Below are positions 1-55,362 of a stretch of DNA of 55,362 nucleotides, piece by piece. How positions within the stretch are numbered: the stretch's first letter is position 1; every line of letters starts with the position of its first letter. Below the pieces are notes generated by a model. The model worked only from the letters and a program-made list of their open reading frames with translations. It was not told the DNA's origin and ran no database searches. The position numbers and the translations under genes were made by a program. Source of the DNA: a virus; the IMG/VR virus record IMGVR_UViG_3300030329_004008, positions 1 through 55,362 of that record, one strand, 5' to 3'.

Positions 1-127
1 TTCCTTTCGCCCTTCTGCTGTTGAGGCATTTCACGAGTCTCTAGTAATTTATTCAGCTTTGGTATAGTAAGCTTGTTATAATCTACAGGCTCTTCAGTTA
101 GCTCGTCTGGATTTAAAAATCCTGGAG
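1..127. repeat. Left copy of the 127-bp terminal direct repeat (circular overlap)
   Basis: Bases 1-127 match 55236-55362 at 126 of 127 positions. The only difference is T at 49 against G at 55284. The minus-strand frame of the giant gene passes through both copies unchanged, so joining them gives a 55,235-bp circle with one continuous ORF. The overlap length and the intact ORF suggest assembly redundancy of a circular or circularly permuted genome. A true short terminal repeat is less likely but cannot be excluded. Confidence 0.9.
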
Positions 128-2015
128 GAAGATCTTCTGTTTCATCCTGCTGCTCAAGTGCAGCTTGCTCCATTTGTAATTCAATTTCTCTCTCTTCTTC
201 TGTAGTGAGGTCAGGATCTGTTTGTTTTGGCTTACGAACTGGAGCGACTTCAGTAGCCTCTATATTTAAAAGTCTCTTAGCCTCTTCTACATAGGCTGGA
301 TCTGTATATCTTGTTGAAAATGCATCTAAAAATTCTTCATCATTTACCCCAAGTTCTCCAAGGATAGCTCTTCCTTTACGCTTTAATGCACCAAGGACTG
401 CTCCTGGAGTTCTATCTGATTGTCCTATATTTGCAGCTAATTGTTCTTCTTGATCAACCTCTCCAAGCCTAAGGACAGTTTTTAGCAATATACTATCCCT
501 ATCTATATCTGGAGCAACAACCTCAGGTCTAATATCTGGCTTATCAATCTGAAGATCCTTTAATGATTTAGCAGATCTAGGCTTTCCACCTAAAGCTTTA
601 ACAGCTAAACCCACTGCAGCTTCACCAAATGCACCTTTACTAGCAGTCTCACCAAGCTCTGTTTTAAATTCTGCCATTGCCTGAGTGTGACCTTTATAGC
701 CTGATTGTATAGCTTTTTGAGCTAATAGCTGTAAAGATTCCTCTCCAGCCCCTCCAGCACCTATAACTGCGGCAGATTCAATCCAGTCTACTATGCGCTT
801 ACTGCGCATCTTCTTAATTCTAGAACCAATATCACTGATACTCTGACCTGTTTTTTGAGCTAAGGCAACAGTCTTAGGATGCTTATATATAAAATCATCC
901 ATCTTAGCAGCCATCTTTTTATAGCCCGAAGTAAATCTTGTTCTATTCCATAGCTGTTGAGCAGGCACTCCCATTGACTTGTTAAGCATGAGTTTCAAAC
1001 TAGTACGCTCTATTGCCATAGCAGGTCCCATGTAGGCTAGGGCATTTGCATTAGCCATAGAAGAAGCATTCTCTATGCTATAACCACGATTTCTAAAATA
1101 TTCAAAGCTTTCATTCCATTCATCTGAATATTCAAATATTCCACCAACAGTCATTCCAGTTGTAAGAGCCGCAGAAGGTCCCCCTAGCACGAATCCTAAG
1201 CCAGCAGCACCAAAATTTATAATAGGAGAAGTTAATGCACTGGCAGCCCATGCGCCCATTTGCTTTGCGCTACGCTCCTTCTGTAAGTCTGAAGGACTAG
1301 CATTGTTAAGCCAATGATAATATGCACGATTCTTAGGATCTTGCATATGTTTTTCCATTGCATGCCCGCCATGTTCAGATAACATATTGCTCCACATTTG
1401 CAATGCATCTCCTGTGGTATACCCAGTAACAGGTCTTTTAAATCTGCCTTTCTTATAATCTCTGTATCCTTTATTTATTGCAAGGAAAGCCCCATCTGGA
1501 TTAGCATTCCATAAGCTCTTCCCTACCTTGCCCCAATCTACATAAGCTAAGGATTCTGGTATAGCAAATACATTTGCAGCAGTCTGAGGTAGCGCTGAGG
1601 GTAATGCAGATATAGCTCTCCATAATTGGGTTTCAGCTTCCTGTGTTATAACCTGTCCCCAACCTGGCTCTTTTACGCCAGCATCATAAAGAAATTCAAG
1701 AGGAACATCATCGCTCAATCTGTGCCTTAAAGCAGCTCTCTCTGGATGATTTTCATCGAAAATGTATCCTAATACAAATTGCTGATCTGTAATATTCTCT
1801 GGCTGGGTAAAGACTAATTTTTGCTCACCTGCGAAAGGAGTAACCCAATCGTAATCAGTACCTCCTCGTATTTGAGAGGCAAATTCCTCATAAGACATAA
1901 GTCCTGGAGCTAAGGAAAGCTTATCAGAAATAGTCTGTTCTTTTTCTAGTAGGGCTTTATACTTATCTGATGCATTTATGAGTGCATTAATCTCGGAAAT
2001 ATCTAGTCTGGCCAT
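1..2015 (-). CDS. Giant polyvalent virion protein with RNA polymerase motifs, N-terminal part (residues 1-671, continues at the right end)
   Basis: I translated this frame triplet by triplet from the ATG at 2015 to base 1 and found no stop. It continues in frame through the terminal repeat into the ORF ending at 48875, giving 8,376 nt and 2,791 residues. This part begins MARLDISEINALINASDKYK. It has a helical acidic region, then Gly/Ala-rich hydrophobic stretches at about residues 255-285, 400-415 and 445-460, as in internal virion proteins that cross membranes at ejection. A Gln/Glu-rich linker (about 590-650) leads to the catalytic half. The ATG lies one base after the stop of the upstream gene and its Shine-Dalgarno is weak, so translation is probably coupled. 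The T/G mismatch between repeat copies changes one residue (Lys in this copy, Thr in the right copy). Confidence 0.9.
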   Translation of the reverse strand, partial: MARLDISEINALINASDKYKALLEKEQTISDKLSLAPGLMSYEEFASQIRGGTDYDWVTPFAGEQKLVFTQPENITDQQFVLGYIFDENHPERAALRHRLSDDVPLEFLYDAGVKEPGWGQVITQEAETQLWRAISALPSALPQTAANVFAIPESLAYVDWGKVGKSLWNANPDGAFLAINKGYRDYKKGRFKRPVTGYTTGDALQMWSNMLSEHGGHAMEKHMQDPKNRAYYHWLNNASPSDLQKERSAKQMGAWAASALTSPIINFGAAGLGFVLGGPSAALTTGMTVGGIFEYSDEWNESFEYFRNRGYSIENASSMANANALAYMGPAMAIERTSLKLMLNKSMGVPAQQLWNRTRFTSGYKKMAAKMDDFIYKHPKTVALAQKTGQSISDIGSRIKKMRSKRIVDWIESAAVIGAGGAGEESLQLLAQKAIQSGYKGHTQAMAEFKTELGETASKGAFGEAAVGLAVKALGGKPRSAKSLKDLQIDKPDIRPEVVAPDIDRDSILLKTVLRLGEVDQEEQLAANIGQSDRTPGAVLGALKRKGRAILGELGVNDEEFLDAFSTRYTDPAYVEEAKRLLNIEATEVAPVRKPKQTDPDLTTEEEREIELQMEQAALEQQDETEDLPPGFLNPDELTEEPVDYNKLTIPKLNKLLETREMPQQQKGER

Positions 2016-11440: not shown

Positions 11441-11448
11441 ACTGCATT

Positions 11449-12466: not shown

Positions 12467-12476
12467 AATATTCTCC

Positions 12477-13093: not shown

Positions 13094-13110
13094 TAAAAGT
13101 TACTCCAAAA

Positions 13111-14912: not shown

Positions 14913-15864
14913 CTAGTATCTCCCTTAGTCCTGCCTTATCTATATTTTCTATCTTTCCTTTTAGATGAAGCCTAGCAACTTTATCTAGTTCATTTAATTT
15001 CCAATTATTGTATTGCTCCTTGATCTTAGCTATAGATTCTTTTTGCCTCTTAACAATTCCGTCTGAATCTTGCTGTGCCTTTTCCAAACGTCTTTCAGCT
15101 GATAGTATCTGACTCTGAATAGAGATGTAATCAGCTTGAGCTTTCTTTGCCAGGGCTTCATAGACCTCGGACTCATCCTTTTTCTCAGTCATTGTATTAT
15201 CTAATAATTTCATATGCTGATTGTGGGCACTTTCCTTTGCTATTCTCTCAGCGTCTTGTGCAGCTATAGATTTAGATATTTCCTCTTGCTTGATCTCTAT
15301 ATCTTTCTTAAATGCTTTAAATTCAGCTTCCAATGAGTCTCTAGCGCTTTTAGTAGCTACAGCATCAGTTCTAGCAGATTCAATCTCACCTTGCAATACC
15401 TTAATATCATGTTTGATATTTGCATATTCATCTTTAGCTGCCTTAATAGAGCCCTTAAGGTCAGTGTACCCTAAACGCTCTTTATTCAATGCATCTAAGG
15501 ATTTCTTCATCTTTGATTCGTTCTTTATTAGCTTCTCTATATTCATTTCAACACATCGTTCCTCATCAAGACTACGAGATAATCTTTCCTGAGATACTTC
15601 CAAATCTCTACGATTCTTATTCGCAATTTTTATGTTGCTATTTATTTCAGACTTTATACTGTCAAGATTAGAATGCTTACTATCTGATTCTTTTTGCACT
15701 ACCTTTATATCAGATTTAATAGATTTTAATTCAGCCTTTGCATCAGCCACCTGAGATTCTAACTTTTTCTTTTGAAGTTTTAATCTGTCATTAGCAGCTA
15801 TAATGGCTTGCTTAAGATCTTCTTTCTTGACTGGTATTTCAGGCCTTCTTTTATTTCCAAACAT
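14905..15864 (-). CDS. Long coiled-coil protein, 319 aa
   Basis: Nearly the whole chain (about 15-300) is heptad-like and rich in Lys, Glu, Ala, Asp, Ser and Ile (KKKLESQVADAKAELKSIKS, then ERRLEKAQQDSDGIVKRQKE). The N-terminus is basic (FGNKRRPEIPVKKEDL). It has no membrane segment or enzymatic motif. It could be a fibre connector, a tape-like spacer or a virion scaffold. Its place among fibre and small virion genes supports a structural function. Sequence alone cannot settle it, since coiled coils give misleading matches. Confidence 0.65.
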   Translation of the reverse strand: MFGNKRRPEIPVKKEDLKQAIIAANDRLKLQKKKLESQVADAKAELKSIKSDIKVVQKESDSKHSNLDSIKSEINSNIKIANKNRRDLEVSQERLSRSLDEERCVEMNIEKLIKNESKMKKSLDALNKERLGYTDLKGSIKAAKDEYANIKHDIKVLQGEIESARTDAVATKSARDSLEAEFKAFKKDIEIKQEEISKSIAAQDAERIAKESAHNQHMKLLDNTMTEKKDESEVYEALAKKAQADYISIQSQILSAERRLEKAQQDSDGIVKRQKESIAKIKEQYNNWKLNELDKVARLHLKGKIENIDKAGLREILGE

Positions 15865-15872
15865 AATCTCTC

Positions 15873-16505
15873 CTAGTGAAATGATAACACAGCTATATCA
15901 TCGTTAGCATTGTTTTCAGCTCCAGTATTCCACATATTAAGCCTAGTAATGTTTGTACCAGATATAGTAAATGGTAATTGATCTACACCAATTTTTATTA
16001 TTGGATTCTTAGAATGAGTCGCTGTATGATTGCTAAGATCACCTATTATCCATACCTTGGTGCCATCTGCGTGACTTGCTGCTACAGAAGAACCATACCC
16101 CCTGCCACCTGAGACAACAAGATTATAGGGTGAAACACGACTCAGAACTTTCATTATTTCAGCATTAACTAGAATTCCAACAGCAGGATCCCCAGAATCA
16201 ATAATTGTGGTAGCGTCATCCACTGTCAGAGATATTCCATCATCTGCAAAAGAACCATCTAGCACAGAACCTGAATCAGTAATGGTATCATTTAGATACA
16301 GATACAAATTATCATTACTAGCAACGGTTTGCCCTGGAATTGGATATATAATGACCTTTTTAGCTGGATTGCTAGGAAGAATATAGCTAGATGTTTTATA
16401 TCCTGCTAATGCAGTCCCCAAATCTAGCTCTTCATAATTCCAGTCACTGAATGCATCATAATTAAGTCCCTCCTGTATAAGAAAGGATGTTAATCCCTTG
16501 CCCAT
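15873..16505 (-). CDS. Virion protein paralogous to the next gene, with an inserted beta domain, 210 aa
   Basis: The N-terminus (GLTSFLIQEGLNYDAFSDWN, then YEELD) and C-terminus (QLPFTISGTNITRLN ... VLSFH) match the 121-aa neighbour at 16514, so the two arose by tandem duplication. This copy carries about 75 extra residues (about 85-160) of the pattern ISLTVDDATTIID ... GILVNAEIMKVL ... SGGRGYGSSVAASHADGTKV, a known phage beta-domain type with an RG-x-G-(T/S)..AH..G signature. Probably tail or head surface. Tandem orientation with 8-bp spacing. Confidence 0.72.
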   Translation of the reverse strand: MGKGLTSFLIQEGLNYDAFSDWNYEELDLGTALAGYKTSSYILPSNPAKKVIIYPIPGQTVASNDNLYLYLNDTITDSGSVLDGSFADDGISLTVDDATTIIDSGDPAVGILVNAEIMKVLSRVSPYNLVVSGGRGYGSSVAASHADGTKVWIIGDLSNHTATHSKNPIIKIGVDQLPFTISGTNITRLNMWNTGAENNANDDIAVLSFH

Positions 16506-16513
16506 ATCGCTCC

Positions 16514-16879
16514 TTAATGAAATGAAAGCACTGACAATGATTCCGATCCACCGCCACCAGCATTCGTTAATGTTAATGAAGTTATAGCTAGTCCAGTTAA
16601 AGTAAATGGTAAATCTCCAGTATCAATCTTGATTAGCTTATTTGTATCAGTCTGACCATTTATAGTAAGCGTTACTACGTCAGTCTCGCTAGTGATAGAC
16701 ACTCCATTAATATCTGGATCATTATATATAACTACTTTCTTTGCTGGGTTAGTATTGGTTATGTATTGCGCTGAATGTGCATTCGTATCACTTTGATCTA
16801 CTTCTTCATAATTCCAATCACTAAAAGCGTCAAAATTAACTGCTTGCTGTACCGTAAATTCTGTTAAGCCTCTTGCCAT
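16514..16879 (-). CDS. Small virion protein, uninserted paralogue, 121 aa
   Basis: Shares GLTEFTVQQAVNFDAFSDWN, NPAKKVVIY and the C-terminal LSVLSFH with the 210-aa protein, but lacks its inserted domain. Beta-rich, no cysteines, no membrane segment. The family is unknown to me. Position between the tail adaptor genes and the coiled-coil protein suggests a structural role. ATG preceded by AGGAGG. Confidence 0.72.
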   Translation of the reverse strand: MARGLTEFTVQQAVNFDAFSDWNYEEVDQSDTNAHSAQYITNTNPAKKVVIYNDPDINGVSITSETDVVTLTINGQTDTNKLIKIDTGDLPFTLTGLAITSLTLTNAGGGGSESLSVLSFH

Positions 16880-16931
16880 TATTACCTCCTACCCTAAGCA
16901 CTGGCGCGTGCATGAATGGGTATGTTTATTG

Positions 16932-17540
16932 TTATTTGATTGCATTGGGCGCAGGATGAACCTGCCTTAAGCCCCAAACTTTTGAACTCTCCTGCTTCTC
17001 TACCATCTTCCTGTATTCTGCCATAAAGTATTCTTTACCTTCAATATCCATTCTATCTTCAGCTACCTTAGCTTTTACATAATATACTAGCGCTTTAGCG
17101 AGATATTCTGGTAAGTCTATTTCATCGTCTTCATCATCCAATGTATCAATATCTTGCAAAACATTAAACGACTCTGTAACTGATCCACCATTGTATTTAG
17201 TTTTTAAAATTAATGTAGTGGCCCCAGATACTGTAGCATTAACATAATGCAATCCATTCCATTTCTCAGAGCCATTAATAACTATAGGGTCTCCCGCTGT
17301 AAAGCTACAAGACGCTATGGTTAATGATAATAATCCTGAAGATTCAGTATATGCAGTAACAGCTAAAGTATCATCAGCATCATTAATTCTATATCTTGGG
17401 CTATATGCATATTCTACTTCTAGACCATCGGTTACGGATTCAATTGGACTTTTCCATTTACCATTATCATCAAGATCCTCTTCAATGAGCGCAATTTGAC
17501 TTCCTCTTAGATAATATCCATAGAATTTATTAGACGCCAT
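16932..17540 (-). CDS. Head-tail connector/adaptor-like protein, 202 aa
   Basis: The ATG at 17540 is preferred because GGAGG lies 7 nt upstream; an ATG two codons earlier would be too close. The chain opens with a short beta region (NKFYGYYLRGSQIALIEED), has a mixed beta middle, and ends in a long helix (DLPEYLAKALVYYVKAKVAE) and a basic tail. The C-terminal YLAKALVYYVKAK..ED helix is typical of the helical part of podovirus adaptor (T7 gp11-like) and head-completion proteins. It overlaps the 93-aa gene, with which it may together make one adaptor. Confidence 0.65.
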   Translation of the reverse strand: MASNKFYGYYLRGSQIALIEEDLDDNGKWKSPIESVTDGLEVEYAYSPRYRINDADDTLAVTAYTESSGLLSLTIASCSFTAGDPIVINGSEKWNGLHYVNATVSGATTLILKTKYNGGSVTESFNVLQDIDTLDDEDDEIDLPEYLAKALVYYVKAKVAEDRMDIEGKEYFMAEYRKMVEKQESSKVWGLRQVHPAPNAIK

Positions 17541-17811
17541 CTGCATCCTCCATGTTTGGTGTATTTATAGCCCTGGGAATACTACGATATTCATCTTTTA
17601 TATTACCATGATTCTTACATCTAATATCGACAACTTTTAATGTGTCATGTGGCATATCGTAAAATCTCTGATCTTTCACTATATCTATTCTCTGAGTAGT
17701 GACATGGGTTTCAGATGTGATATTCATTTCATCTAATCCGTCCTTGATATAAGCAATAGCACGACCTGTTTGCTTAATGCCTACTCTCTCCATAAGCTCT
17801 TTAACTTTCAC
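17530..17811 (-). CDS. Adaptor-like N-terminal domain protein, 93 aa
   Basis: GTG start with GGAG 4 nt upstream. It contains a helical pair (MERVGIKQTGRAIAYIKDGL) then beta strands (TTQRIDIVKDQRFYDMPHDT), the usual order at the N-terminus of podovirus tail adaptor proteins, which are longer single chains. Its 3' end overlaps the 202-aa connector-like gene. It may be one half of a split adaptor or an independent protein. Confidence 0.6.
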   Translation of the reverse strand: MKVKELMERVGIKQTGRAIAYIKDGLDEMNITSETHVTTQRIDIVKDQRFYDMPHDTLKVVDIRCKNHGNIKDEYRSIPRAINTPNMEDADGV

Positions 17812-18016
17812 TATTCTCCTCTTCAGGATGTAACTGAAGCAAGACCTCTAATGCACCTTGAGCCTTAACGGCCATTGTCTTGTGATGGTCTGCTTGCTTT
17901 ATATGATCTTGAAGTTGAACCCTTAAAGTCTCAATAGCTTCCTTAGGATCTAACTTATCATCCTTAACTTCAGTTACTTCTGCATCCTTTACATTATTTT
18001 CTTTTACTTTACTCAT
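17801..18016 (-). CDS. Small acidic helical protein, 71 aa
   Basis: The N-terminus is charged and probably disordered (KENNVKDAEVTEVKDDKLDP). It is followed by an amphipathic helix with three histidines (RVQLQDHIKQADHHKTMAVK) and an acidic tail (HPEEENSES). Function unknown. Similar short helical proteins sit beside adaptor genes in related phages and may be chaperones or tail assembly factors. It overlaps the adaptor-like gene by 11 nt. Confidence 0.65.
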   Translation of the reverse strand: MSKVKENNVKDAEVTEVKDDKLDPKEAIETLRVQLQDHIKQADHHKTMAVKAQGALEVLLQLHPEEENSES

Positions 18017-18031
18017 TATATCTCCTGTTTG

Positions 18032-19969
18032 TTATTTGCTTTCTAAGGCATCTACCTTAGCTGATAATTCTTGTATTGCTTTCATCATAACAGTTATAAA
18101 TTGACTTTCGGTAACACCCATTCTGTCAATAGACCCATCTTCCTTAACAGCTCCTGGAGTGCCTGTTGTCGCCTGCTTATATACTTCGTATACCTCGTCT
18201 GCTATAAGGCCGCCTATAACTTGCTTATTCTCTCTATGCCTACCTAATTCTGCATTCCATTTAAAATCTCTAAGTTTTATACTATTCATTATTGCAAGTC
18301 CATCCATACTGGTATCTTTTATATCCTTTTTTAATCTAACATCAGAAACATTAGTCCATGCTGTATTTATATTTCCATCAGATGCTGTTACAAACTTTCC
18401 AATTTCTCCATCTTGACCATCATGAATAGTTATAATTTTAAGTTGTGTGCCATGTATATCCTGATCAGCAGATGCGTCTAAACGCAATATTTCATCACCT
18501 GCTTCCATATCACCCTCACCATGCTCAATATGAACTATTGGGATATTTGTCTCTCCACTGCTATAAACATGAAGTGGGCTTAATGGTGGATTAATTCCAA
18601 TACCAACAAAACCTCCCTTTAGATACGATACATTCCCTGAATCTAAGCTTATGTCAAGATTACCAGAAGCATCATATAAGTTCATATATCCATCCTGAGT
18701 AGAACTTTTACCCATAACACCAGAAGTTTCACCACCAGATTCCTTAACTACGATAATATTCTCACCTGTACCGTCACCTACCGCGCCCTTGACTACAAAC
18801 TTATTTCCAGGACTAGTATCGCCAATACCGACTCGCAAGTTTACACCGTCTAAAGTCATAATCGTGTTCCCAGCGGAATCATCACCCATAGGGTCTTGGT
18901 TAACAGGGTTGCCAGAACAGAAAAATAAACTTCCTTGCTGTTGTGTGGGGTCACCAGAACCATCAGCTCTAGCTCCGTTAGCAATAGCAAATTGCCTAGA
19001 ATTAGTATCTTCATTGTCACCAAATTGGAGTATTGCAGTGGTTGCAATAGCACCAGAATCTCCAGTTATAGCCACTGTATTAGTATAACCTTGTTCCGCA
19101 TCAATAGTTAAACCGCTATTACCTATTTGCAATTTTACTACTGGGTCAGTAGTTCCAATACCGACATTGCCATTAGATAGAATACACATTTTTTGAGTAG
19201 CAGTTGTTGTTCCACTATTTGTATAAAATGCAAGTTCTCCTGGCATATCATCTGTACCTGGTGTTCCATTTATTCTTGCCCTAATTATAGCAGCTTCTGT
19301 CCAAGTATCATCAGACACATCTAAACCTTCAAAAAATATATCTCCCACTATATCATTATCAGTAAGATTGGCTTGTGTCCCTCCTATTGGCCCATCACCT
19401 TTTCTAAATACTATATTTCCACCCTCATCATCAGCAGTTGTAGAATGATTAGTTATATAAAGATTAGGTCTATTGTTAGTTTCCGAGTATATTTCAAGAA
19501 GTCCAGTTGGATCATTAGTCCCAATACCTACCTTGCCACTGCCAAGTATTGTCATAACTCGATTTGATGCCCCTCCCATAAATAATCTCAGTTCTTCGTC
19601 AGCTGCTGTGCTATTGTGAGCGAAATTAATACTTCCTTTTGCACTACCTCCTTGATAAAATTCTATAATAGAGTTATGAGTAGCAGCGTTCGCATCTAGC
19701 CTTAATGTAGCATTGTCCGTAGTGGCATCTAAAGTTAATACAGGTGTAGCACTCTCTAGCTCTAATAAAGTTGCTGGCGAAGAAGTCCCAATACCGACCC
19801 TTGCTGTACCTACTGCTAAGCAAGATTCTGTTATACTTCCGTCCTTATCATCAGTAGCTATTACTCTTTCACTTCCAGCGCCTGATCCATTAAATCCAGA
19901 ATCACTCTTAGTAATAAGTAGCTTCCCATATGTAGCTGCTAGCGTCTTTCCATGTATTTCATTTGCCAT
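18032..19969 (-). CDS. Head/tail fibre with Peptidase_S74 chaperone, 645 aa
   Basis: A beta-repeat shaft has several GKVGIGTNDPTGLLEIYS-type blocks (about 60, 145, 270, 375, 455), each G-I-G-x-(T/D)-x-P. The C-terminal chaperone starts at the self-cleavage motif SDVRLKKDIKD (about residue 542), continues with KLRDFKWN and GGLIADEVYEV, and ends in the coiled coil IQELSAKVDALESK. The last motif closely matches the end of the other S74 protein (QELSAKIDTM), so both may share a chaperone origin. It lies just after the small virion genes, closer to the head genes than the other spike. Confidence 0.88.
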   Translation of the reverse strand: MANEIHGKTLAATYGKLLITKSDSGFNGSGAGSERVIATDDKDGSITESCLAVGTARVGIGTSSPATLLELESATPVLTLDATTDNATLRLDANAATHNSIIEFYQGGSAKGSINFAHNSTAADEELRLFMGGASNRVMTILGSGKVGIGTNDPTGLLEIYSETNNRPNLYITNHSTTADDEGGNIVFRKGDGPIGGTQANLTDNDIVGDIFFEGLDVSDDTWTEAAIIRARINGTPGTDDMPGELAFYTNSGTTTATQKMCILSNGNVGIGTTDPVVKLQIGNSGLTIDAEQGYTNTVAITGDSGAIATTAILQFGDNEDTNSRQFAIANGARADGSGDPTQQQGSLFFCSGNPVNQDPMGDDSAGNTIMTLDGVNLRVGIGDTSPGNKFVVKGAVGDGTGENIIVVKESGGETSGVMGKSSTQDGYMNLYDASGNLDISLDSGNVSYLKGGFVGIGINPPLSPLHVYSSGETNIPIVHIEHGEGDMEAGDEILRLDASADQDIHGTQLKIITIHDGQDGEIGKFVTASDGNINTAWTNVSDVRLKKDIKDTSMDGLAIMNSIKLRDFKWNAELGRHRENKQVIGGLIADEVYEVYKQATTGTPGAVKEDGSIDRMGVTESQFITVMMKAIQELSAKVDALESK

Positions 19970-31697: not shown

Positions 31698-31836
31698 TGC
31701 AATCTCCAGTTAAGTGAATGTGATCTACATCACAATAGCTTGGACAGGTGTAAGATCCCCCTGGGCAATATTCTAGATAGATTTCTCCATACCACATTAC
31801 CCCCGCGAAAATTAAGGCCAGGAGGATATTTCCCAC
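31630..31836 (-). CDS. Small membrane-anchored Cys-rich protein, 68 aa
   Basis: GTG start. An N-terminal hydrophobic span (GNILLALIFAGVMWYGEIYL) is followed by a Cys/His cluster (YCPGGSYTCPSYCDVDHIHL, then C) and a polar tail. The layout suggests an exported or membrane-anchored protein with a disulfide or metal-binding head. It could be a superinfection-exclusion or lysis factor; there is no direct evidence. Its coding sequence contains the CRP-like site at 31719-31734. Confidence 0.58.
   Translation of the reverse strand: MGNILLALIFAGVMWYGEIYLEYCPGGSYTCPSYCDVDHIHLTGDCIENKKNKANEQRLPKSHPETRI
31719..31734. promoter_or_regulatory. CRP-type operator, copy 1
   Basis: TGTGATCTACATCACA matches the CRP consensus half-sites TGTGA and TCACA exactly with N6 spacing, and 15 of 16 bases of the ideal palindrome TGTGATCTAGATCACA. 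It lies 22 nt upstream of the 71-aa gene start and inside the 68-aa gene. No good -10 sits at a standard class I or II distance, so activation, repression or looping with copy 2 remain open. Confidence 0.65.
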
Positions 31837-32108: not shown

Positions 32109-32124
32109 TGTGAGCTACATCACA
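32109..32124. promoter_or_regulatory. CRP-type operator, copy 2
   Basis: TGTGAGCTACATCACA has both exact CRP half-sites and differs from copy 1 at one base only (spacer position 1). It lies between the divergent -10 elements at 32067-32072 (leftward) and 32171-32176 (rightward). This is the expected location for a shared activator of both arms. Confidence 0.7.
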
Positions 32125-45350: not shown

Positions 45351-45496
45351 GAAGAAAAGCTACATCAATTAATGATCAATTCTGGAAAGAATCTTATTTC
45401 ATTCATTCCACGCTTGAAGAAGCATTAGAGCAGGAAGTTGATTCAGAAATAATCAGGATATTAAAAAATCCAAATTTGTTTGTAGCTACTAGTTAG
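45323..45496 (+). CDS. Small protein at the convergence point, 57 aa
   Basis: ATG at 45323 within the resolvase gene, stop at 45494-45496. Begins MDIYNPKKIGRKATSINDQF and ends NPNLFVATS; helical and acidic in the middle. It ends 8 nt into the minus-strand gene 45489-48875, so the two arms of the genome meet with overlapping stops. No known function. Confidence 0.55.
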   Translation: MDIYNPKKIGRKATSINDQFWKESYFIHSTLEEALEQEVDSEIIRILKNPNLFVATS

Positions 45497-48400
45497 CTAT
45501 CTTTTTCATAAGAGCTGGACTTTCTTTAATGATTGCTCCAGTAACAGGCTCTGGCCATAAATAACCAAGCATACCTTTAGCTTTATATTTAGCTGCATCT
45601 TCCTCATTACCTGCAATTAATGCAAATAATGCGAATGCATCGTATAAGAAGCCTGCCCCTACGCCTGCACCAGGTAGAGACCTTATGTGATAAGCTATTA
45701 ATCTCTCGAGATCTTTAGCGTCATCCCATGGATCATCTATATCATCTGACATGGCGATTGCGGCTAGTATTGGTAGCCATATTAATGCAGCTATGGGAGA
45801 TCCTGCGCCTCCTAGATTGCGAGCACCTAAGAGATAAAATGCACTTCTTGCTACATCAGGTAATACTGGTAATACGTACATTGATTGCATTAATCCTTCT
45901 ATTAAGAAGTGAGTAAGAAACCATCTCTTCAGTCTAAGGACCTCAGGTTTTGAATTTGCTAAGACGTCATTGTTTCTCCATATATCTCTAAACATAAGCT
46001 TTATGGTTGCAGACAGTTTATTATCTGCATTAACTGCGTCTAAAGCATTCTTCCATAATTCTACATCAGATGCTGCTTTTTGTGACTTCCATACAGAAAA
46101 CTGACTAAATAAAGATCCCAATGCACCTCTATATGCCTCACCTACACCTTGTCTACTCATGCTAAAATCAAATTGCATATTTGTAGCAAGCCTACCATAG
46201 TAAATGGCCAAATCTCTATCTCGGCCAGTCAATTCCCACATATTACCAGAAGGAATTTCTCCAGCTTTTTGTGCATTTTGCACTCCTAGTATAAAAGAAA
46301 TGGAACGTATATGCTGTTCCATATCGGACATAATTCCTGCCCTACCAAAATGCTTCCTTATATTCCTTACAATATCTTCCCCTCGCTTAGCAAGAATTAA
46401 CATTGAAGGGTTCTCTCTCACCATATCTCTCAATATAGCTTCGTTGTTGATAGCAAAGTTTGTAATTTTATTCGTTATTCTTTGAATCTTTTCCTGCCTT
46501 AATTTGGCATCGAATTGTGAAGCCTCTTCCTGATCTAATACGTTTTCCCACTTTAGCTTTACTCCCCACAGCTTTGTAAGATTCTTCTTCAATATATTTT
46601 CTGCATTTTTAATGCTAGTACCCTTATTCCGTCTATCAAAATAAGATAGATATTCAGCAACCATCTTGTTGATATTATCTCTCTCCATTTCCATTGCCTC
46701 AAGTTCCTTGACAATAGAGTTAGTAAAGAACTCATTAAATAAAGTCACCCCAGACTCTTCAAGCATAGGCGAGAGTGCATCCTTATTTTGGGTATAATAT
46801 TTTGATGCATCTAAAAATGATCCTAGACCTGACTTAACTACTTTCTCAATATTTCCAAAGGCTTGCCTTATAGCGCTAGTAGGTCCAGATAACATTAAAT
46901 TGAGAAATTTTCTATAAATCTTTAAGCCTCTTACCATTCGAGGGTTTATATTTTGATCAGAGAGGTCCATTCCAAACATTAATGATCGTGCATCCTTCCT
47001 TCCCATTGTAGCTTTATATAAAGAGGAGAATGCATCTGATACTCCTGGCATATCTGTCATAGACATGGCCGTTATTAATGCGGCAGTAAGATTGTTTCTC
47101 TCTATGTTACGAGCTGTATGCTCTAAATAAGATCTAAATACACCGCGATCTGTACGAGACTTAAGAACATCAAAGGCATTACTAACATGCTTGAAGTGCT
47201 TAGCTCTAGTACGAGTGACCATTTTGTCTCCATCTAATGCATCTTCATCTGTCTCTAATAACTCTTCTTTCATTGCTTTTTGGTTAGCAATAGACGTCTT
47301 TAATGCATCTTCCTGAGCCTCTAATTTCACTAGTTCATCACCTGTAACAGCTGTTTTCGCATCTTGGATTTGGCTTAAGGCGTATTCCATAGAATCAATA
47401 GCGTCTTCTATAATGAAAACAAACTTTTCTGGCATATAGATATAAGGAAAGTAGAACTTCTTATATGTAGCCATATCTCCCATCATTGGCTTAAATGGTT
47501 GCTCTAACGACCACTTAGTAAATTCATTTTCTAACATTGCTAGCCTGGATATATCTTCATGAGACCATATTATATTCCCCTGCTCATCATGTAGCTTTCC
47601 ATCTACTATAGCCCTTTTCAATTGTTCAACGCTTTTCCCTGGGAAATGAGTCCTTAATGCATTTAATACCCTTAGGAAGCTCTCTTCAGATTGAGATTTA
47701 AAATGCTCAAATGCCTGATCCATAATAACTCTAGCTTCTTGTACGTATTGATCTAATTGTGCGAGCATTGTACTTGTAAGTGGAGGCATATTCATTATCA
47801 TATCTAGGGTATCATATCTCAATCTACCCTTTTGATCTGTCATTTTATTATCTTTTACAGTACCGTGAATATTAGGATCATATCTAAGAGGTACTGGATT
47901 CTGCCATCCGAAAATAACATCTCCACTATCATAACTTTCCGAAGTAGGAGCCCACCATTGATTAATATACCATCCAGCCCCATGCTCATACACTAATCGT
48001 GAAGGCCTACCAGGTTTCTCTTTAGTCATTTTAGCAGCTCTTTTATCATCTACATATTCAACACGACCATGCATCATCCATGTAAATAATTCTACAATTC
48101 TCTGAGCTCCCTGTTCCTTTGTCCTACCACCATAAAATCCTGCAGCTTCCCAAGCGCTTCTTAAATCTCCATCTATATCTGCATGATCATACACCCCTTC
48201 TACTGAATTCATTATACGAGTCATTCCAATGCTCTCATCAGTAGGGTTCATAAATTTATGTATATGTCCAGCTATATTATCAGCAAAGTCCTGTGTAGCT
48301 TTCCATACCTTGTGATATGCACCAGAGTTTTCAGTAAATCTAAGCTTTCTAGTAACACCCCATCCAAGTCTAACCCCTCTATACCATAAATTATCCCATC

Positions 48401-48875
48401 TAGATCCATCAGCACTAGTCCATGCCTCTGTAAATCTTAGATATCTTTTTAAAGTTCCAATAGGTAGCTTATATAGTAATAGCTTTCTCTGTTGAGTATC
48501 TTTATTGATCGCTATTACTTTCTTCTTGAGCATAGGGGCTAAGCTAATAGCATCAGCATGTAATTCTTCGACAATTGGCAGTGCTAAATGCTGGTTAGCT
48601 TCGATAAGCATCCTTATCTTATTAGCTATTTGTTCACGCTCTGGAAGAGATCCCATAATCTTATTTATAGCTTTAGCACGAGATTCTTTATTTCCAAAAG
48701 ATAGCTTACTTCCAATTTTAATGATGGCTTTTGCTATCTTACTATTAGCATATCTAGGATGCTCTGGATCAGCTTCTATAGAGCTATCTACATATTGTTC
48801 AGTTTGTAATTCAAAGCTCTTAGCTTCTGTCTCTATAGCGTTTAATGCTCTAGTGGCTATGTTGCATTTATCCAT
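45489..48875 (-). CDS. Large internal virion/polyvalent-associated protein, 1128 aa
   Basis: The ATG at 48875 is used; it has AAAGGAA 6 nt upstream and overlaps the giant gene's stop (TAATG), unlike an upstream TTG. The chain is helical throughout. Segments such as NNLTAALITAMSM and MLSGPTSAIRQAFGNIEKVV are typical of large helical domains in phage internal proteins and polyvalent proteins. Near the C-terminus there is a hydrophobic region (about 1005-1065, LIEGLMQSMYVLPVLPDVAR, then AFYLLGARNLGG). It is the last leftward gene and probably enters the host with the giant protein. No enzymatic motif. Confidence 0.72.
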   Translation of the reverse strand: MDKCNIATRALNAIETEAKSFELQTEQYVDSSIEADPEHPRYANSKIAKAIIKIGSKLSFGNKESRAKAINKIMGSLPEREQIANKIRMLIEANQHLALPIVEELHADAISLAPMLKKKVIAINKDTQQRKLLLYKLPIGTLKRYLRFTEAWTSADGSRWDNLWYRGVRLGWGVTRKLRFTENSGAYHKVWKATQDFADNIAGHIHKFMNPTDESIGMTRIMNSVEGVYDHADIDGDLRSAWEAAGFYGGRTKEQGAQRIVELFTWMMHGRVEYVDDKRAAKMTKEKPGRPSRLVYEHGAGWYINQWWAPTSESYDSGDVIFGWQNPVPLRYDPNIHGTVKDNKMTDQKGRLRYDTLDMIMNMPPLTSTMLAQLDQYVQEARVIMDQAFEHFKSQSEESFLRVLNALRTHFPGKSVEQLKRAIVDGKLHDEQGNIIWSHEDISRLAMLENEFTKWSLEQPFKPMMGDMATYKKFYFPYIYMPEKFVFIIEDAIDSMEYALSQIQDAKTAVTGDELVKLEAQEDALKTSIANQKAMKEELLETDEDALDGDKMVTRTRAKHFKHVSNAFDVLKSRTDRGVFRSYLEHTARNIERNNLTAALITAMSMTDMPGVSDAFSSLYKATMGRKDARSLMFGMDLSDQNINPRMVRGLKIYRKFLNLMLSGPTSAIRQAFGNIEKVVKSGLGSFLDASKYYTQNKDALSPMLEESGVTLFNEFFTNSIVKELEAMEMERDNINKMVAEYLSYFDRRNKGTSIKNAENILKKNLTKLWGVKLKWENVLDQEEASQFDAKLRQEKIQRITNKITNFAINNEAILRDMVRENPSMLILAKRGEDIVRNIRKHFGRAGIMSDMEQHIRSISFILGVQNAQKAGEIPSGNMWELTGRDRDLAIYYGRLATNMQFDFSMSRQGVGEAYRGALGSLFSQFSVWKSQKAASDVELWKNALDAVNADNKLSATIKLMFRDIWRNNDVLANSKPEVLRLKRWFLTHFLIEGLMQSMYVLPVLPDVARSAFYLLGARNLGGAGSPIAALIWLPILAAIAMSDDIDDPWDDAKDLERLIAYHIRSLPGAGVGAGFLYDAFALFALIAGNEEDAAKYKAKGMLGYLWPEPVTGAIIKESPALMKKIAN

Positions 48876-51800
48876 TAACAATTCCTTTTAAGGATTCTTG
48901 AAAGAGGATCATATGCAACTCTACGAGCTGATTCACTACGTCCTTCAATATCCTTAATCTTTTTATTATATAATTTTAAATACTTGCTCATTAATACAGG
49001 ATCTAACACTGTAAGGTCTGGCTCTGAAGATACTGGAGGCAGATTATTGCGTTGTACTGTGTACATTAGCTTGCCTTGTTGATCCAATTGGGCGAACCCT
49101 CTTAAGAATGCAATAGTTGCTGAGAATTGTCCTAAAGGTCCCATCTCCATATAAGCAGCTCCCCACCAAGAGGTAAATCTAATGAGATCTGGATTATAAT
49201 CCCAAGATACAGCTTCATTATTTTCAGCTATACGCTCCATTATAGATGCATATCCTTCTCCAGTTAGATTCTCACCTTCTCCCTTCGAGTTCCACATTTG
49301 ATTAGCATAAGATGTGCCATCTGCAATACTTTGCTCTAGATCTTTATCAGTAATCTCTTCTCCAGTCAATTCTCTATGATATATGCGCTCATTATCCATT
49401 GCTTCTTGCATTAAAGTATCTATATCTTCTTCAAGATCTGCCATAGATTGCAAGTGCACTGTATTATACACATCCTGCTCATACTCAACTGGGGAGATTT
49501 TATTAGGCTCAGCTAAAGATGCGATACCAGTTCTCTCATCTCCATACCACTGTCTAGCAAATTCTACTGTCACCTCTTCTAATGGAGATAATGTATCATT
49601 AAATTCTACTGAGCTTACTAGACCACTTAGAGCTTCATTTCCATCATACTTATCCATTAAATATCCTTGACGATCATTAATATAGTCTAATAGTTTCTTG
49701 CTTTCCTTTAATAATGATGTAACTGAATGACTATGATCAAAGCCTCTACCTCTACGGATAGTTCTAGTTAATGCACTTATTGATATAATGGGCTTTATTA
49801 AGTCCATATATTCAGTATTATTTTCATTTATTTCAGATTTCCAGTTACCATTTTCATCTGCGATATAGAACAACCTAGATATAAGTTTATCTCTGGAATA
49901 GTTCCATTCAGATAATAACAAATGCTTATGGTTATCTACCGCAGCCTGCAACCAGATTCGTAACTGCTCTTCCATTGTCATTGAATCGTTCATCTCAGGA
50001 AACAATACTTGATCCAGGAGCTTATGAACCTTAATCTGATTGCCATCATTAAGTTTAATTCCATTGAAATTGTGGTTTAGCTGTCCTAATACATTTTGTA
50101 ATGCAGCTATTTGCCCTACAGATCTTTTCCCTACCTGGAACATTTGTGTTAACAATCTAACATTTTCTGCCTTAGAAAGGTCTATCTCTCTAGCCATGCT
50201 TGGAAGTGAAATAGCTTTCATTCTATTAGCAGCCTCTGCATCTAGTAAAAACTGCTGAATACTAGTAGCTAGATCATCGGGAATAAATTCAACCTGTATT
50301 GCATCACCGTCATAGTCACCTTCAAGTAACTTAATAGAGACATTATCTGAAACAATTGCTTGCCCTCCTCTATTATGCAATGCCTTAACTCTTAATACTC
50401 TCGCACCTCCTACGTATGGAACTGGCGACCTGTGTATCAATGTCAAAATCTTTGTGTTCTCAAGCCACTTGTTTATTGCATTTAGACTAAGCTTTTTAGC
50501 CTCATTAACAGTTCCACCATTCTCTTTTGCATAAGCAACATATACTTGATGAGCATTTGTAGCAGCTAATGTGATTTCATCATCATTATGTGTATTGAAA
50601 TAATCTGGAGCAAGATCTACATATGTACCTTTACCATTATTAAGAGATAATGCAGGGGTTATGACCTGTGTTCTTAAAATCTTATTTAACATACCCATAG
50701 CATCAGCATGCATTCCTAATCCTAGCTTAAACTTCTCTAATAATGCAGTGGTCATTGCATGTGGAGAATCTGAATGCACACTCTGTGCAAACTTGAGTAA
50801 GGTAGATGCATTAAATGTATTAGATCCAGTCAGTGTAAATATGCTCTTTAATCGCTCCTTAATTCTTGGCATCATAAAGCCTTTCAAATCATTTACCAGG
50901 TCTGTATCATGAACATAGTTAGTCCATTGCATTCCGAATGTTGCGGTCTTCTTTGGCTCGTGATACTTTATAAGCCCTATTTCCTCACCTGCAATATCAA
51001 TAATCTCTCCAGATTTATAGTTCGATATCTTAGCCTCATCATCTGTCATAAGTATATCAACTTCATTCCTGCCTTCTGCAGTTACTTGATATATCCTGCC
51101 ATTGTCGTCAACTTCTGCTAATAGCTGCCTATTACCATCTTTCCCTATCTTGATAATTTTCATTCCAGCTTCAGGTTCAAACATTTCATGCTTAACAGCA
51201 AGAGATAGATCTGCCTTCCATATAACTGTCTTGAATAGCCTCATTAAAGGATTGCTTCCAAATGCTTCGTGCATATCATTCGTAAATGTACTGCTAATAA
51301 TGGATGCACCATCAGTACGATTCTTATTGCCCATACCAGCTATTATATCCATCATATTTCCTTCATTGCCATTACGGTCAACAAATACTATCTGATTTCT
51401 TTCAGCTTCATTAGTAGCTATTTGCACAGCTTTTGCACCTCTCATAAGAGGGGAAGTGAATACTGGCGTAGTAGCAATCTTGATACGTCTAAATAATTCT
51501 GCACCATTATTAATCATATTTGCTGGCATCAATCTTCTCATCATTTCATATCTAGCAATCTCTCCAGCTAGCCATTTCTGTGAGTATCTTGCCTTGCTTC
51601 TTACATGGTTACCATCCTTGTCAATTCTGTAACCCATAAAGTTAAGCATCTGATCTTCTGTTATAAAGCCACCTACCACTTGAGCTTTCCAATATGCTTT
51701 AATTTGATTTTCATTTCTAGCGATAGACATATGGCGATCTAATATAGGAGCAAACATCATATGCCCAGAATCTCCTCTGGTAGACATAAGAGCTAATCCG

Positions 51801-54800
51801 TGAATTACACCTTGTCTGTCTTCATAAGTAAAGTTATTTAATGCATACACTTGCAACTGCTTAATCTGATCATCAGACAGAACATCTACAAACTTATCGG
51901 TAAATGCCTTGCCATATTTTGTCACTATTTCATATATATCTTTTAGGTTCAAGAATACAGGCTTTTGCATTCCCCACTTCTTATCAGCTTTGGTAGCTTC
52001 ATATATTAAATTCTGATCTCTAGTAGAGTTTGACTTTTCTGTAAAATTACTTTTATTCCTTTTTATTACAAGCTCTCCAGAAGTTCGGTATTCTAAGTTC
52101 CTTCTCCTAGGAGTGATACCAGATGCAGGATTTACAGTAACAGTAGAAGCAGTACGCACAAAGAACTGTTTAATCCTTCTTCTTTCTATAGATCCTGAAG
52201 GAAAATCTGAGTACCTATACCCTGTAGCTACTTGCAAAGGACCTTCACCCCATGCGTCAAAAGCTTCTTGAGGAGTAAGGGTTGGTTGATTTAAGAATTG
52301 CAATACAGAACTCAGTAATGATATCATCTTATTGTGAGGTATATTAATTCCCAGTTCCCTCATGAAGGTATATTCAGTACTAACTCCATGCTTAGCTCTT
52401 ATATCATTATCATTTCCAGGGATAAAGCTTAAATCTTCTTCAACAGCAGCATATATCTCATCAAATGCATCATTGAACTCTTCTCTTGTAGCATAAACAT
52501 CATTCATCGCATGCATTCTTTTTACTATCTTGCCAATCTGAACATGCTGATTAGCCCATACATCAAAAATAGCAGCCATATCAAATGGTATCTCTTCAGC
52601 TAATTTTGCTATATATTTTTTGATATTAAAAGACTTGCCCAGCTTTGTCTGCATTGCATTTAATGCATTGTCAAATATTCTTAAAGCTTGATTCCCAGCC
52701 TCAGTTCCAGGCTCTATCTGTTGATAGTCTATCTGTCCAAGAGACATCTCCTCTGCTGGAATTGTATAATGCATTCTCTGAGGACCTTTGTCTGTTGGGA
52801 TGAAGCGATTGTAATCCCATATATCTTTAAATCTACTATAACTTAATTTAGCTCTAAATGGATCTTCATAATGAGCAAGCTGGACTTGATACCTATTTCC
52901 ATCAGAGCCTACAAAGTCATGCATAATTGGATTCTCTCTTCCCTGAGCCTCTGGGCCAGAAAAGAAGTCCACTAACATAGCTTCGGTGCCAGTCTTAATT
53001 TCTGTCTCTGATATAATATTACCAGCATCATTCATCTTATAATCAAGCTTATAAGTGCCAACAATCTCGTTCTTTGCATTTCTTACATTGTAAGATATAA
53101 TTTTCTTCCCATCTTTTCTGCGCTTAATGTCAGATACTTTATGCCCAGATGGAGGTACAAGGAATGTATCTGTACTAGCTCCTCCTGGTAAGCTAAATGA
53201 ATAAGCCTCGATAGCTCCTTTGAAATGCTTTTTAATTAAGGATATTGCTGATTCTCTAGTTCCTATATTGACAAAATCAAGATCATGCACTACAGAATCC
53301 TTAGGTCTATAGACTGAGCCTTGGGTAGAATAAGCAATACTTCCTGTCAATATAATATCATCTGCAGTACCGATCTTAGTCATAATATCTTTTGCGATCG
53401 GATTCATATCAAAAGCTTCCTGAAAATCTATTAGAACATATCCAGGTTTCTTAGTAGTTGCTACGAAACTTTCATGCTTAAAGGTATTGTCTACAATCTT
53501 GTTAATAGCGGGCTGTATAACGCTCCAATTTGCTCCAGTAAGACTATCTAATACCTTCTGAACAAATACCTTAATACGTTTTAATAAGCTATCGCTAACG
53601 TTTAATTCCTTAGCAAGTCTTTCACTAAAGCCAGACTGTAATAGGTCTTGGAATATTTCCTTAGTAGCTAATCTTAATGCAATCCTACCATTGATATCTG
53701 GATTGTCTTTATATATCTGCTCAATTGCATTCTTATACCTATCAGTGTCCTTTACCGCTTCTCTTATATCGTAAAAATCTTGTGAATAACTAAGCATTTC
53801 TGACAATGCATCTGCCATCACCTTAGATACGTGATTTATATCATGCCTATTTAGATCAACTCTCTTGTTAGCTAGATTTACAAACAGCTCCTGTACGTCA
53901 TTGACTTCAAATCCATAATCAATTAAGAAATTTAACAATCTACTTTGAGGAGAATCATCTTCAAAGCGAGTTAATGGAGTAAATGAAAACTCAAATCCCA
54001 TCTTCTTCCAGAAGTCAATAGAATCTGGATGAGCTATAATATTTATTATCTGCTCACCCCTACCTACCATTACCTCCTTGATTGATTCAAAAAATCTAGT
54101 CCCCAAGCCTTTGCCTCTAAGGTTTTCTGGCACTACAATATTACCAATACGTGACTTGTCAGTGGGATGAGGAGTCCATTTAAGTCCATATTTTTTAACA
54201 AGTTGGTTTAATAGTATCGTAGAAGCAGCTTCATGTTGAGCTCCTTTACGCTTATAAGCCTCTACTGCAATCTCTTCACCAACTTGAAATAGCTGATCAC
54301 CTTCTACAAATTTCTGTGCAATATATTGAGAGGGCCTTCCAAATACTTTCTTGACATGAGCCCAGAACTTGCGAAGGAAATTTTTAACTCTAGCTTTTAA
54401 GCTGCCAGGAGCGTCCTTTAATGCATTAGCATAGTATTCTCCAACATATTGAGTTAACTGCTCCTCAGTCTTCATATCCTGTAATGCTTTTTCAATAAGA
54501 GGATGACCTCTCAATGCTTTAACTAGTATATGAAAATACTCGTGCGGAGCTGTATCTACAGTAGCCTTTCCTTTAGCCCACTCTGCAATAGTATTGAATG
54601 CACGCCCTGCCTGCTCTTCTCCTGAGAGATGGTCAATTATTTGATCTACCTCTTTCCCTGCTATGTTAGGGAAGTCTTCTCTTAGCTTAGCTTTAACCCT
54701 ATCAGCCCATTCCTGTGCATCATCCGCTAAAGGAAGTTTAGTTTCTTTAATGGCTTGATAATCAATGCCCCAATCATGTTTATCCTTCAAGTCTTCAAGG

Positions 54801-55362
54801 TATGCTCTATTTTTTGCAGAACTAATTGACTCTTCCATTAAAGGGGTTGGATTATCTCTAATAAGGTCTAGAACATCTTCTTTAGTGTTTAGTAAGGAAA
54901 CATCCAACCCTCTACCTTGAGCAATTTCTTTTAAATCTTTAAGAGATCTATGCTGATTAGTCTCGATCCAATTCTCTTGACGTCTCTTTCTTTCTTGCCA
55001 TATAGCAGGATGCACACCTTCTGGCGCACCTAATGCATCAATTCTATCAGCTTCTGCCCTTTCAGCATCCATCTTGGCTGCTTCAGCTTCTTCCTCTTGC
55101 TGTGGAGCGGTAAGCTCTGTCTCTTCTCCAAAGATTCTAACCTGACCAGAAACATTAGGCTCTGTGTCTTCATATCCAGGAACCCCAAAGGCTTCTTGCT
55201 CATCTTTTTTCTGAAGCCTACGTACAAGGTCAGCCTTCCTTTCGCCCTTCTGCTGTTGAGGCATTTCACGAGTCTCTAGTAATGTATTCAGCTTTGGTAT
55301 AGTAAGCTTGTTATAATCTACAGGCTCTTCAGTTAGCTCGTCTGGATTTAAAAATCCTGGAG
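48875..55362 (-). CDS. Giant polyvalent virion protein with two-barrel RNA polymerase, C-terminal part (residues 663-2791 from base 55264)
   Basis: Continuation of the ORF that enters at base 1. Full-length residue positions (add 662 to the window ORF): metallopeptidase HEYFH (903-907); GNAT with NLRGKGLGTRFF (1043-1054); nucleotidyltransferase GSIAYSTQGS and HDLDF (1303-1326); double-psi barrel 1 DG in RTDGASIISS (1980-1981), then lysines in VIWKADLSLAVKHEMF (2012, 2020); barrel 2 DYDGD in LEGDYDGDAIQV (2312-2316; codons at 50303-50317), preceded by HRSPVPYVGGARVLRVKAL as in beta-prime subunits. This order and spacing fit a single-chain two-barrel RNA polymerase of the YonO/phi14:2 gp66 class. 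The stop is at 48875. Confidence 0.87.
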   Translation of the reverse strand, partial: PGFLNPDELTEEPVDYNKLTIPKLNTLLETREMPQQQKGERKADLVRRLQKKDEQEAFGVPGYEDTEPNVSGQVRIFGEETELTAPQQEEEAEAAKMDAERAEADRIDALGAPEGVHPAIWQERKRRQENWIETNQHRSLKDLKEIAQGRGLDVSLLNTKEDVLDLIRDNPTPLMEESISSAKNRAYLEDLKDKHDWGIDYQAIKETKLPLADDAQEWADRVKAKLREDFPNIAGKEVDQIIDHLSGEEQAGRAFNTIAEWAKGKATVDTAPHEYFHILVKALRGHPLIEKALQDMKTEEQLTQYVGEYYANALKDAPGSLKARVKNFLRKFWAHVKKVFGRPSQYIAQKFVEGDQLFQVGEEIAVEAYKRKGAQHEAASTILLNQLVKKYGLKWTPHPTDKSRIGNIVVPENLRGKGLGTRFFESIKEVMVGRGEQIINIIAHPDSIDFWKKMGFEFSFTPLTRFEDDSPQSRLLNFLIDYGFEVNDVQELFVNLANKRVDLNRHDINHVSKVMADALSEMLSYSQDFYDIREAVKDTDRYKNAIEQIYKDNPDINGRIALRLATKEIFQDLLQSGFSERLAKELNVSDSLLKRIKVFVQKVLDSLTGANWSVIQPAINKIVDNTFKHESFVATTKKPGYVLIDFQEAFDMNPIAKDIMTKIGTADDIILTGSIAYSTQGSVYRPKDSVVHDLDFVNIGTRESAISLIKKHFKGAIEAYSFSLPGGASTDTFLVPPSGHKVSDIKRRKDGKKIISYNVRNAKNEIVGTYKLDYKMNDAGNIISETEIKTGTEAMLVDFFSGPEAQGRENPIMHDFVGSDGNRYQVQLAHYEDPFRAKLSYSRFKDIWDYNRFIPTDKGPQRMHYTIPAEEMSLGQIDYQQIEPGTEAGNQALRIFDNALNAMQTKLGKSFNIKKYIAKLAEEIPFDMAAIFDVWANQHVQIGKIVKRMHAMNDVYATREEFNDAFDEIYAAVEEDLSFIPGNDNDIRAKHGVSTEYTFMRELGINIPHNKMISLLSSVLQFLNQPTLTPQEAFDAWGEGPLQVATGYRYSDFPSGSIERRRIKQFFVRTASTVTVNPASGITPRRRNLEYRTSGELVIKRNKSNFTEKSNSTRDQNLIYEATKADKKWGMQKPVFLNLKDIYEIVTKYGKAFTDKFVDVLSDDQIKQLQVYALNNFTYEDRQGVIHGLALMSTRGDSGHMMFAPILDRHMSIARNENQIKAYWKAQVVGGFITEDQMLNFMGYRIDKDGNHVRSKARYSQKWLAGEIARYEMMRRLMPANMINNGAELFRRIKIATTPVFTSPLMRGAKAVQIATNEAERNQIVFVDRNGNEGNMMDIIAGMGNKNRTDGASIISSTFTNDMHEAFGSNPLMRLFKTVIWKADLSLAVKHEMFEPEAGMKIIKIGKDGNRQLLAEVDDNGRIYQVTAEGRNEVDILMTDDEAKISNYKSGEIIDIAGEEIGLIKYHEPKKTATFGMQWTNYVHDTDLVNDLKGFMMPRIKERLKSIFTLTGSNTFNASTLLKFAQSVHSDSPHAMTTALLEKFKLGLGMHADAMGMLNKILRTQVITPALSLNNGKGTYVDLAPDYFNTHNDDEITLAATNAHQVYVAYAKENGGTVNEAKKLSLNAINKWLENTKILTLIHRSPVPYVGGARVLRVKALHNRGGQAIVSDNVSIKLLEGDYDGDAIQVEFIPDDLATSIQQFLLDAEAANRMKAISLPSMAREIDLSKAENVRLLTQMFQVGKRSVGQIAALQNVLGQLNHNFNGIKLNDGNQIKVHKLLDQVLFPEMNDSMTMEEQLRIWLQAAVDNHKHLLLSEWNYSRDKLISRLFYIADENGNWKSEINENNTEYMDLIKPIISISALTRTIRRGRGFDHSHSVTSLLKESKKLLDYINDRQGYLMDKYDGNEALSGLVSSVEFNDTLSPLEEVTVEFARQWYGDERTGIASLAEPNKISPVEYEQDVYNTVHLQSMADLEEDIDTLMQEAMDNERIYHRELTGEEITDKDLEQSIADGTSYANQMWNSKGEGENLTGEGYASIMERIAENNEAVSWDYNPDLIRFTSWWGAAYMEMGPLGQFSATIAFLRGFAQLDQQGKLMYTVQRNNLPPVSSEPDLTVLDPVLMSKYLKLYNKKIKDIEGRSESARRVAYDPLSRILKRNC
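55236..55362. repeat. Right copy of the 127-bp terminal direct repeat
   Basis: Identical to bases 1-127 except G at 55284 against T at 49. It encodes the linker between the N-terminal and catalytic parts of the giant protein (LTIPKLN-T/K-LLETREMPQQQ). Coding continues through it, so the contig ends are artificial. Confidence 0.9.

Follow-up and report, generated by a model that had tools for sequence, protein, structure and literature searches.

The uncultured virus record IMGVR_UViG_3300030329_004008 in IMG/VR, analysed here over its whole length of 55,362 bases (the window), encodes a giant protein of 2,791 amino acids. We conclude that this is probably a polyvalent protein of the virion that is ejected on infection, and that its last ~1,290 residues form a single-chain two-barrel DNA-dependent RNA polymerase (RNAP). 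By its predicted fold, the C-terminal module is almost certainly a two-barrel polymerase; by analogy with better-studied phages, the giant protein is likely carried in the virion. The virus itself is probably a short-tailed phage (a predicted podovirus), apparently marine.

The giant gene and its polymerase module

Both ends of the record overlap by 127 bp (bases 1-127 against 55236-55362; 126/127 identical, one mismatch). The overlap falls inside the giant gene, and such a sequence suggests a circular or permuted genome, or a short terminal repeat. The minus-strand open reading frame (ORF) that exits at the low end (2015 to 3, residues 1-671) resumes in frame at the high end (55362 to 48875). 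Because the frame re-enters there, the joined protein has 2,791 residues, exactly the single-chain length given in a preliminary description of this DNA.

48875..55362, minus strand: giant gene, C-terminal part; residues 663-2791, counting from the ATG at 55264, with the frame staying open up to the end of the contig
1..2015, minus strand: giant gene, N-terminal part, residues 1-671; the gene crosses the contig ends
48878..52735, minus strand: RNA polymerase module, residues about 1506-2791; about 1795-2791 kept in all homologs, 1506-1795 in a subset

Homologs were reached through the terminase, which gave at least 600 matching stretches in IMG/VR. Among 17 contigs searched, mostly terminase relatives, six carried the catalytic region inside much larger ORFs. 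An alignment of six modules, used as the next query, led to 31 loci, all 31 with a module-matching ORF. The window protein and 27 sequences from these loci make up the 28-member alignment A2. The 27 further giants, mostly 2,100-4,400 amino acids long and all from IMG/VR contigs, share the last ~990 residues at 18-28% identity to the window protein.

At this distance, few residues remain constant. Invariant in all 28 sequences are D1980, G1981, K2007, K2020, R2274, P2276, D2312, D2314, G2315, and D2316, along with four residues of a QAAVDN segment and a C-terminal cysteine; position 2 of DxDGD varies freely. The preliminary description had placed every one of its motifs correctly (DG at 1980-1981, K2012, K2020, HRSPVP at 2273, and DYDGD at 2312-2316, codons 50303-50317). 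Its choice of catalytic lysines, 2012 and 2020, holds for the latter only: K2012 is not conserved, and invariance identifies the pair as K2007 and K2020. The barrel-1 lysines and the barrel-2 aspartate triad are the predicted catalytic residues.

51308..51313, minus strand: invariant D1980-G1981 (A2 alignment)
51230..51232, minus strand: invariant K2007 (A2 alignment), absent from the preliminary description
51191..51193, minus strand: invariant K2020 (A2 alignment)
50417..50434, minus strand: HRSPVP (2273-2278), with R2274 and P2276 invariant, running into the DYDGD strand of barrel 2
50303..50317, minus strand: DYDGD (2312-2316), predicted Mg2+-binding aspartate triad, its aspartates and glycine invariant in A2
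49931..49948, minus strand: QAAVDN (2435-2440), with Q, A, D, and N invariant, located beyond the long helices behind barrel 2; a possible trigger-loop/bridge region
48878..48880, minus strand: Cys2791, a cysteine at or near the C-terminus, invariant across the polymerase giants

Conventional sequence comparison reaches known polymerases only below threshold, although in the correct register. The PHROGs profile phrog_2987 ('RNA polymerase beta subunit') matches around DYDGD (E 0.0066), and the RNA-dependent RNA polymerase family PF05183 matches two family members (E ~0.006). Run against sequences in the Protein Data Bank (PDB), the family profile touches a single polymerase, P23-45 gp96, at RxPV...DxDGD (E 0.26, not significant), aligning HRSPVP with the RNPV of gp96. 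The single giant protein found no tblastn match in the phage collection and none beyond chance among PDB sequences; a degenerate-peptide scan with the catalytic 580 residues found nothing; and hhalign of the family against the single phi14:2 gp66 sequence was uninformative, with no significant similarity.

Predicted structure

AlphaFold2, applied to residues 1795-2791 with the 28 sequences, gave a model with a predicted local distance difference test (pLDDT) score of 84.9 and a predicted template modelling score (pTM) of 0.80. In Foldseek the best match of the whole module is 6vr4, the virion RNAP of phage phi14:2 (E 2.3e-11), followed by QDE-1 (E 2.7e-9), P23-45 gp64 (1.7e-6), the AR9 non-virion RNA polymerase (nvRNAP; 4.9e-5), and bacterial beta' (~4e-4). 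VIA-align matched most of the module to RDR2 and QDE-1 entries at Z 16-19 (top RDR2 Z 19.1, QDE-1 Z 18.9). The entry 6vr4, first in Foldseek and in the first-barrel list below, has no row in the whole-module VIA-align results, which is no evidence against kinship. The preliminary description had guessed phi14:2 gp66 and QDE-1 as kin, and these are indeed the closest solved structures. In a viral structure library, the closest entries are the unnamed proteins A0A516LSI3 and A0A516LUR1 (template modelling score 0.8), then crAss-like proteins.

50813..51586, minus strand: first barrel region, residues 1889-2146, beta/QDE-1-type double-psi beta-barrel (AlphaFold and VIA-align)
50213..50647, minus strand: second barrel, residues 2202-2346, beta'-type double-psi beta-barrel (VIA-align)

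Each barrel can be recognized separately. Beta' chains match model residues 408-552, the stretch around DYDGD, with Z 13-14 and a root-mean-square deviation (rmsd) of ~2.6; the AR9 nvRNAP beta' fragment gives Z 13.9 (rmsd 2.6, 140 residues) and Escherichia coli beta' Z 13.3. Residues 1889-2146, which hold the DG and both conserved lysines, were predicted alone with a pLDDT of 86. The top VIA-align match of this region is 6vr4 (Z 9.4 over 175 residues, rmsd 3.0); QDE-1 (Z 8.2) and RDR2 (~8) come next, with lower matches to Pol III B (Z 4.9), to P23-45 gp96 (Z 4.0) and gp64, and to plain double-psi barrels such as expansin and kiwellin. Foldseek of the first barrel alone was weak (best QDE-1, E 0.03). 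The beta' alignments of the second barrel and the first-barrel matches of 1889-2146 alone therefore place both barrels in the prediction, beta-type before beta'-type within one chain. The polymerase identity proposed in the preliminary description is supported by two predicted double-psi barrels, with DYDGD lying inside the second, and by the invariant catalytic-type residues.

Other domains and a polyvalent architecture

Upstream of the polymerase module, the giant protein carries further domains.

54530..54544, minus strand: HEYFH (903-907), metallopeptidase-like HExxH, from motif and conservation; conserved region about 826-983
53993..54172, minus strand: GNAT acetyltransferase domain, residues 1027-1086 (PF00583, E=1.4e-4, above the cut-off)
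52784..54022, minus strand: nucleotidyltransferase-like domain, residues 1077-1489, GS...DLDF; fold assigned by motif only

Several unrelated catalytic domains are found in one phage protein, encoded near packaging and late genes: GNAT from Pfam, HExxH and the nucleotidyltransferase-like domain from motifs, and the polymerase from its fold. In most homologs the HExxH likewise lies N-terminal of the polymerase. The whole has the polyvalent-protein architecture of the type of Iyer et al. (2017), resembling injected proteins. It also comes close to the virion RNA polymerase (vRNAP) of coliphage N4, where the T7-type domain nearly always occurs joined to a metallopeptidase (PMC5512222).

The nucleotidyltransferase-like domain is 41-54% identical to parts of giant proteins in three contigs (L002, L003, and L004), none of which matches the A2 polymerase profile. 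Because this identity far exceeds the ~25% of the polymerase itself, the domain appears to have been moving recently. On contig L004, an ORF of 4,486 codons (4712-18172) combines this domain with EGDYDGDATAMFF at about residue 2909, and is likewise unmatched by the A2 profile; it is probably another divergent two-barrel polymerase.

Genome context and proposed mechanism

The giant gene lies on the same strand as the genes for terminase, portal, capsid, and tail fibre or spike. The portal matches P22_portal and the capsid SU10_MCP. Directly downstream is a gene for a protein of 1,130 amino acids, whose homolog adjoins the polymerase gene in 17 related loci. This protein matches no Pfam family, and in PHROGs gave only weak matches of unknown function.

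45489..48881, minus strand: 1,130-aa gene directly downstream of the giant gene; two hydrophobic segments near the C-terminus

The virus also carries double-stranded DNA packaging genes and its own primase/DnaB-like gene. The preliminary description had stated that there is no other RNAP gene. This stands for the ORFs scanned with PHROGs and Pfam and for six-frame searches with PF00623 and PF05183; a search with PF00940 for T7-type enzymes found no match in the window, but the control genomes gave none either.

The barrels, the aspartate triad, the DG with its lysine pair, and the position in the structural arm are computed features. From gene position and domain architecture, and from the experimentally studied analogues phi14:2 gp66, P23-45 gp96, and N4, we infer packaging, injection, and early transcription. 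The giant protein would be packed in the capsid and, following the pattern of phi14:2, N4, and P23-45, would enter the cell together with the DNA or before it. Its polymerase would then read the early genes on the plus strand (about 32.2-45.4 kb) at phage-specific promoters, either ahead of the host polymerase or in its place. For the metallopeptidase, GNAT, and nucleotidyltransferase-like domains, possible roles during entry are processing of the protein itself or modification of host targets. Since the polymerase is fused into an apparently injected protein, the phage probably supplies its own enzyme for reading its first genes.

Two exact TGTGANNNNNNTCACA palindromes, resembling CRP/FNR sites, lie 390 bp apart (31719-31734 and 32109-32124) where the late and early arms diverge. 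If at most one mismatch is allowed, chance alone should give two matches in the whole window; both of those found are exact and close together.

Indications of the host point in two directions. Of the 37 genes examined, 30 have a Shine-Dalgarno-like sequence upstream, which would suit a proteobacterial host better than Bacteroidota. Against this must be weighed a suggestion of Bacteroidota from the phi14:2 host and from a homolog of the polymerase module (L157, 26% identity), whose 13 kb contig belongs to a Flavobacteriales metagenome-assembled genome and is perhaps a binned virus contig. The structural genes seen lend no support to placing the virus in Crassvirales, a placement that may still hold: the portal found no Crassvirales by tblastn, the major capsid protein none among the matches listed (six further), and the terminase large subunit, among the matches listed (20; 414 further), other phages at 22-27% identity.

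Alternative explanations

Several observations weigh against an injected polymerase that serves early genes. Matches to sigma70-like promoters in the early region show no excess (58, versus 56.9 in shuffles), and a direct-repeat search of the early arm found no repeated phage promoter motif. At the level of sequence, GNAT alone gives a clear domain match in the giant protein. Its full length of 2,791 residues depends on joining the contig ends, although the polymerase module (48,878-52,735) does not. We consider it unlikely that a true two-barrel polymerase is made and used inside the cell, the giant protein remaining unpackaged. Such non-virion enzymes are known, namely YonO (PMC5467207) and P23-45 gp64 (PMC10770324). 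However, YonO has ~840 residues and is unfused, whereas this gene sits in the same-strand structural arm, paired with the conserved 1,130-aa partner, and its fusion to a metallopeptidase-like HExxH and other polyvalent domains fits injected proteins.

The other alternatives concern the module itself. A two-barrel polymerase of different chemistry (an RNA-dependent RNA polymerase like QDE-1 or RDR2, a primase, or a PolD-like DNA polymerase) might be read from the VIA-align list, which RDR2 and QDE-1 head; but the best Foldseek match is the DNA-dependent phi14:2 enzyme, and the virus has DNA packaging genes as well as its own primase/DnaB-like gene, so we hold this very unlikely. Slightly less credible still is a degenerate or repurposed fold, a structural or ejection protein that has no polymerase activity. 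The sequence is extremely divergent from known polymerases, which would fit such decay, and on three contigs whose terminases are related the giant that occupies this slot lacks DxDGD. Those three giants, however, carry an alternative invariant DAD[FY]DxDKS, and invariance of the triad, the DG, and both lysines despite such low identity is as expected from selection on catalysis. That the DxDGD and DG/K motifs arose by chance in an unrelated giant protein we regard as close to impossible. DxDGD alone does occur in 5.3% of shuffles of the giant protein, and with RxP[VIALT] 28-50 residues before it in 0.06%; invariance across A2, rather than motif statistics, is therefore the main evidence against chance. 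Together with the structure prediction, the Foldseek matches, and the first-barrel VIA-align, that conservation refutes the chance reading.

Other giants in the same slot

The first module search had missed four large contigs whose terminases are related (G008, G003, G006, and G009). G008 has a divergent site, DNDGD. The others, G003 (L143), G009 (L147), and G006 (L149), encode the DxDGD-less giants, each of ~3,050 amino acids, with INPQDAD[FY]DxDKSS, in which QDAD[FY]DxDKS is invariant, and a cysteine near the C-terminus; phi14:2 gp66 carries the comparable SDFDIDKM. These motifs suggest that the three are possibly a second polymerase type. Their identity is only a lead, because hhalign of A2 against the DADxDxD-type giants aligned the aspartate motif alone, at a non-significant score. 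More distantly, the cultured Roseobacter phage CRP-810, a distant capsid match, has a 2,016-aa HExxH protein beside an 'internal virion protein D', with no DxDxD motif in it.

With somewhat less than even confidence, we suggest that this virus group forms an undescribed virion-polymerase branch, in which a polyvalent ejection protein bears a two-barrel RNAP as its C-terminal cargo. Related phages would then fill one gene slot with divergent versions: DxDGD in most, DAD[FY]DxDKS in G003, G006, and G009, and a different HExxH giant that has no DxDxD in the more distant CRP-810. If so, the phages of a single clade exchange their injected transcription machines, or these machines change extremely quickly there. 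No description of this polymerase group was found in the open-access papers searched; one elsewhere is possible.

Comparison with known systems

Single-chain two-barrel polymerases are central to ideas on the origin of cellular RNA polymerase. In the literature consulted, the solved phage examples are few: phi14:2 gp66 and two P23-45 enzymes. The module described here is best placed as a new branch of these enzymes, carried as the C-terminal module of a polyvalent giant. With it comes a family of no fewer than 28 divergent sequences from uncultured, apparently marine phages, for which the model is confident, the catalytic residues are clear, and a construct can be delimited (about residues 1506-2791).

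The closest counterpart, phi14:2 gp66 (PDB 6VR4), is an experimentally studied virion RNAP, as summarised in PMC7886860. Like the window protein, it comes from a short-tailed phage, is of giant size, and has both polymerase barrels in one chain; its gene lies among those for large structural proteins, and it is the best match of the whole module in Foldseek and of barrel 1 in VIA-align. However, it has DFDID (1361-1365) rather than DxDGD; it lacks HExxH, an HEIMH sitting instead in the neighbouring gp076; and its genome is a 100 kb member of the Crassvirales, compared with 55 kb, a P22-type portal, and an SU10-type capsid here.

P23-45 gp96 (PDB 8H2M/8H2N) likewise joins a two-barrel polymerase, in one chain, to a metallopeptidase-bearing giant virion protein, the tape measure protein (PMC10770324). 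There the polymerase is N-terminal in 5,002 residues, in a long-tailed phage; here it is C-terminal, in a predicted podovirus. QDE-1 and RDR2 (PF05183) share the whole-module fold (Z 16-19) and the weak PF05183 match in two members, but are cellular eukaryotic RNA-silencing enzymes, about 10-12% identical. YonO of SPbeta and the AR9/phiKZ polymerases share two-barrel chemistry with DxDGD, and the AR9 beta' fragment aligns well with the second barrel; yet YonO is an intracellular enzyme, and the jumbo-phage polymerases are multisubunit.

In strategy, the nearest parallel is the N4 vRNAP, a giant injected protein with metallopeptidase and polymerase serving early genes (PMC5512222), although its T7-type single-subunit polymerase has an unrelated fold. 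The same combination of polymerase, metallopeptidase, and effector-like domains, built around a different polymerase fold, points to convergent evolution of injected transcription machines.

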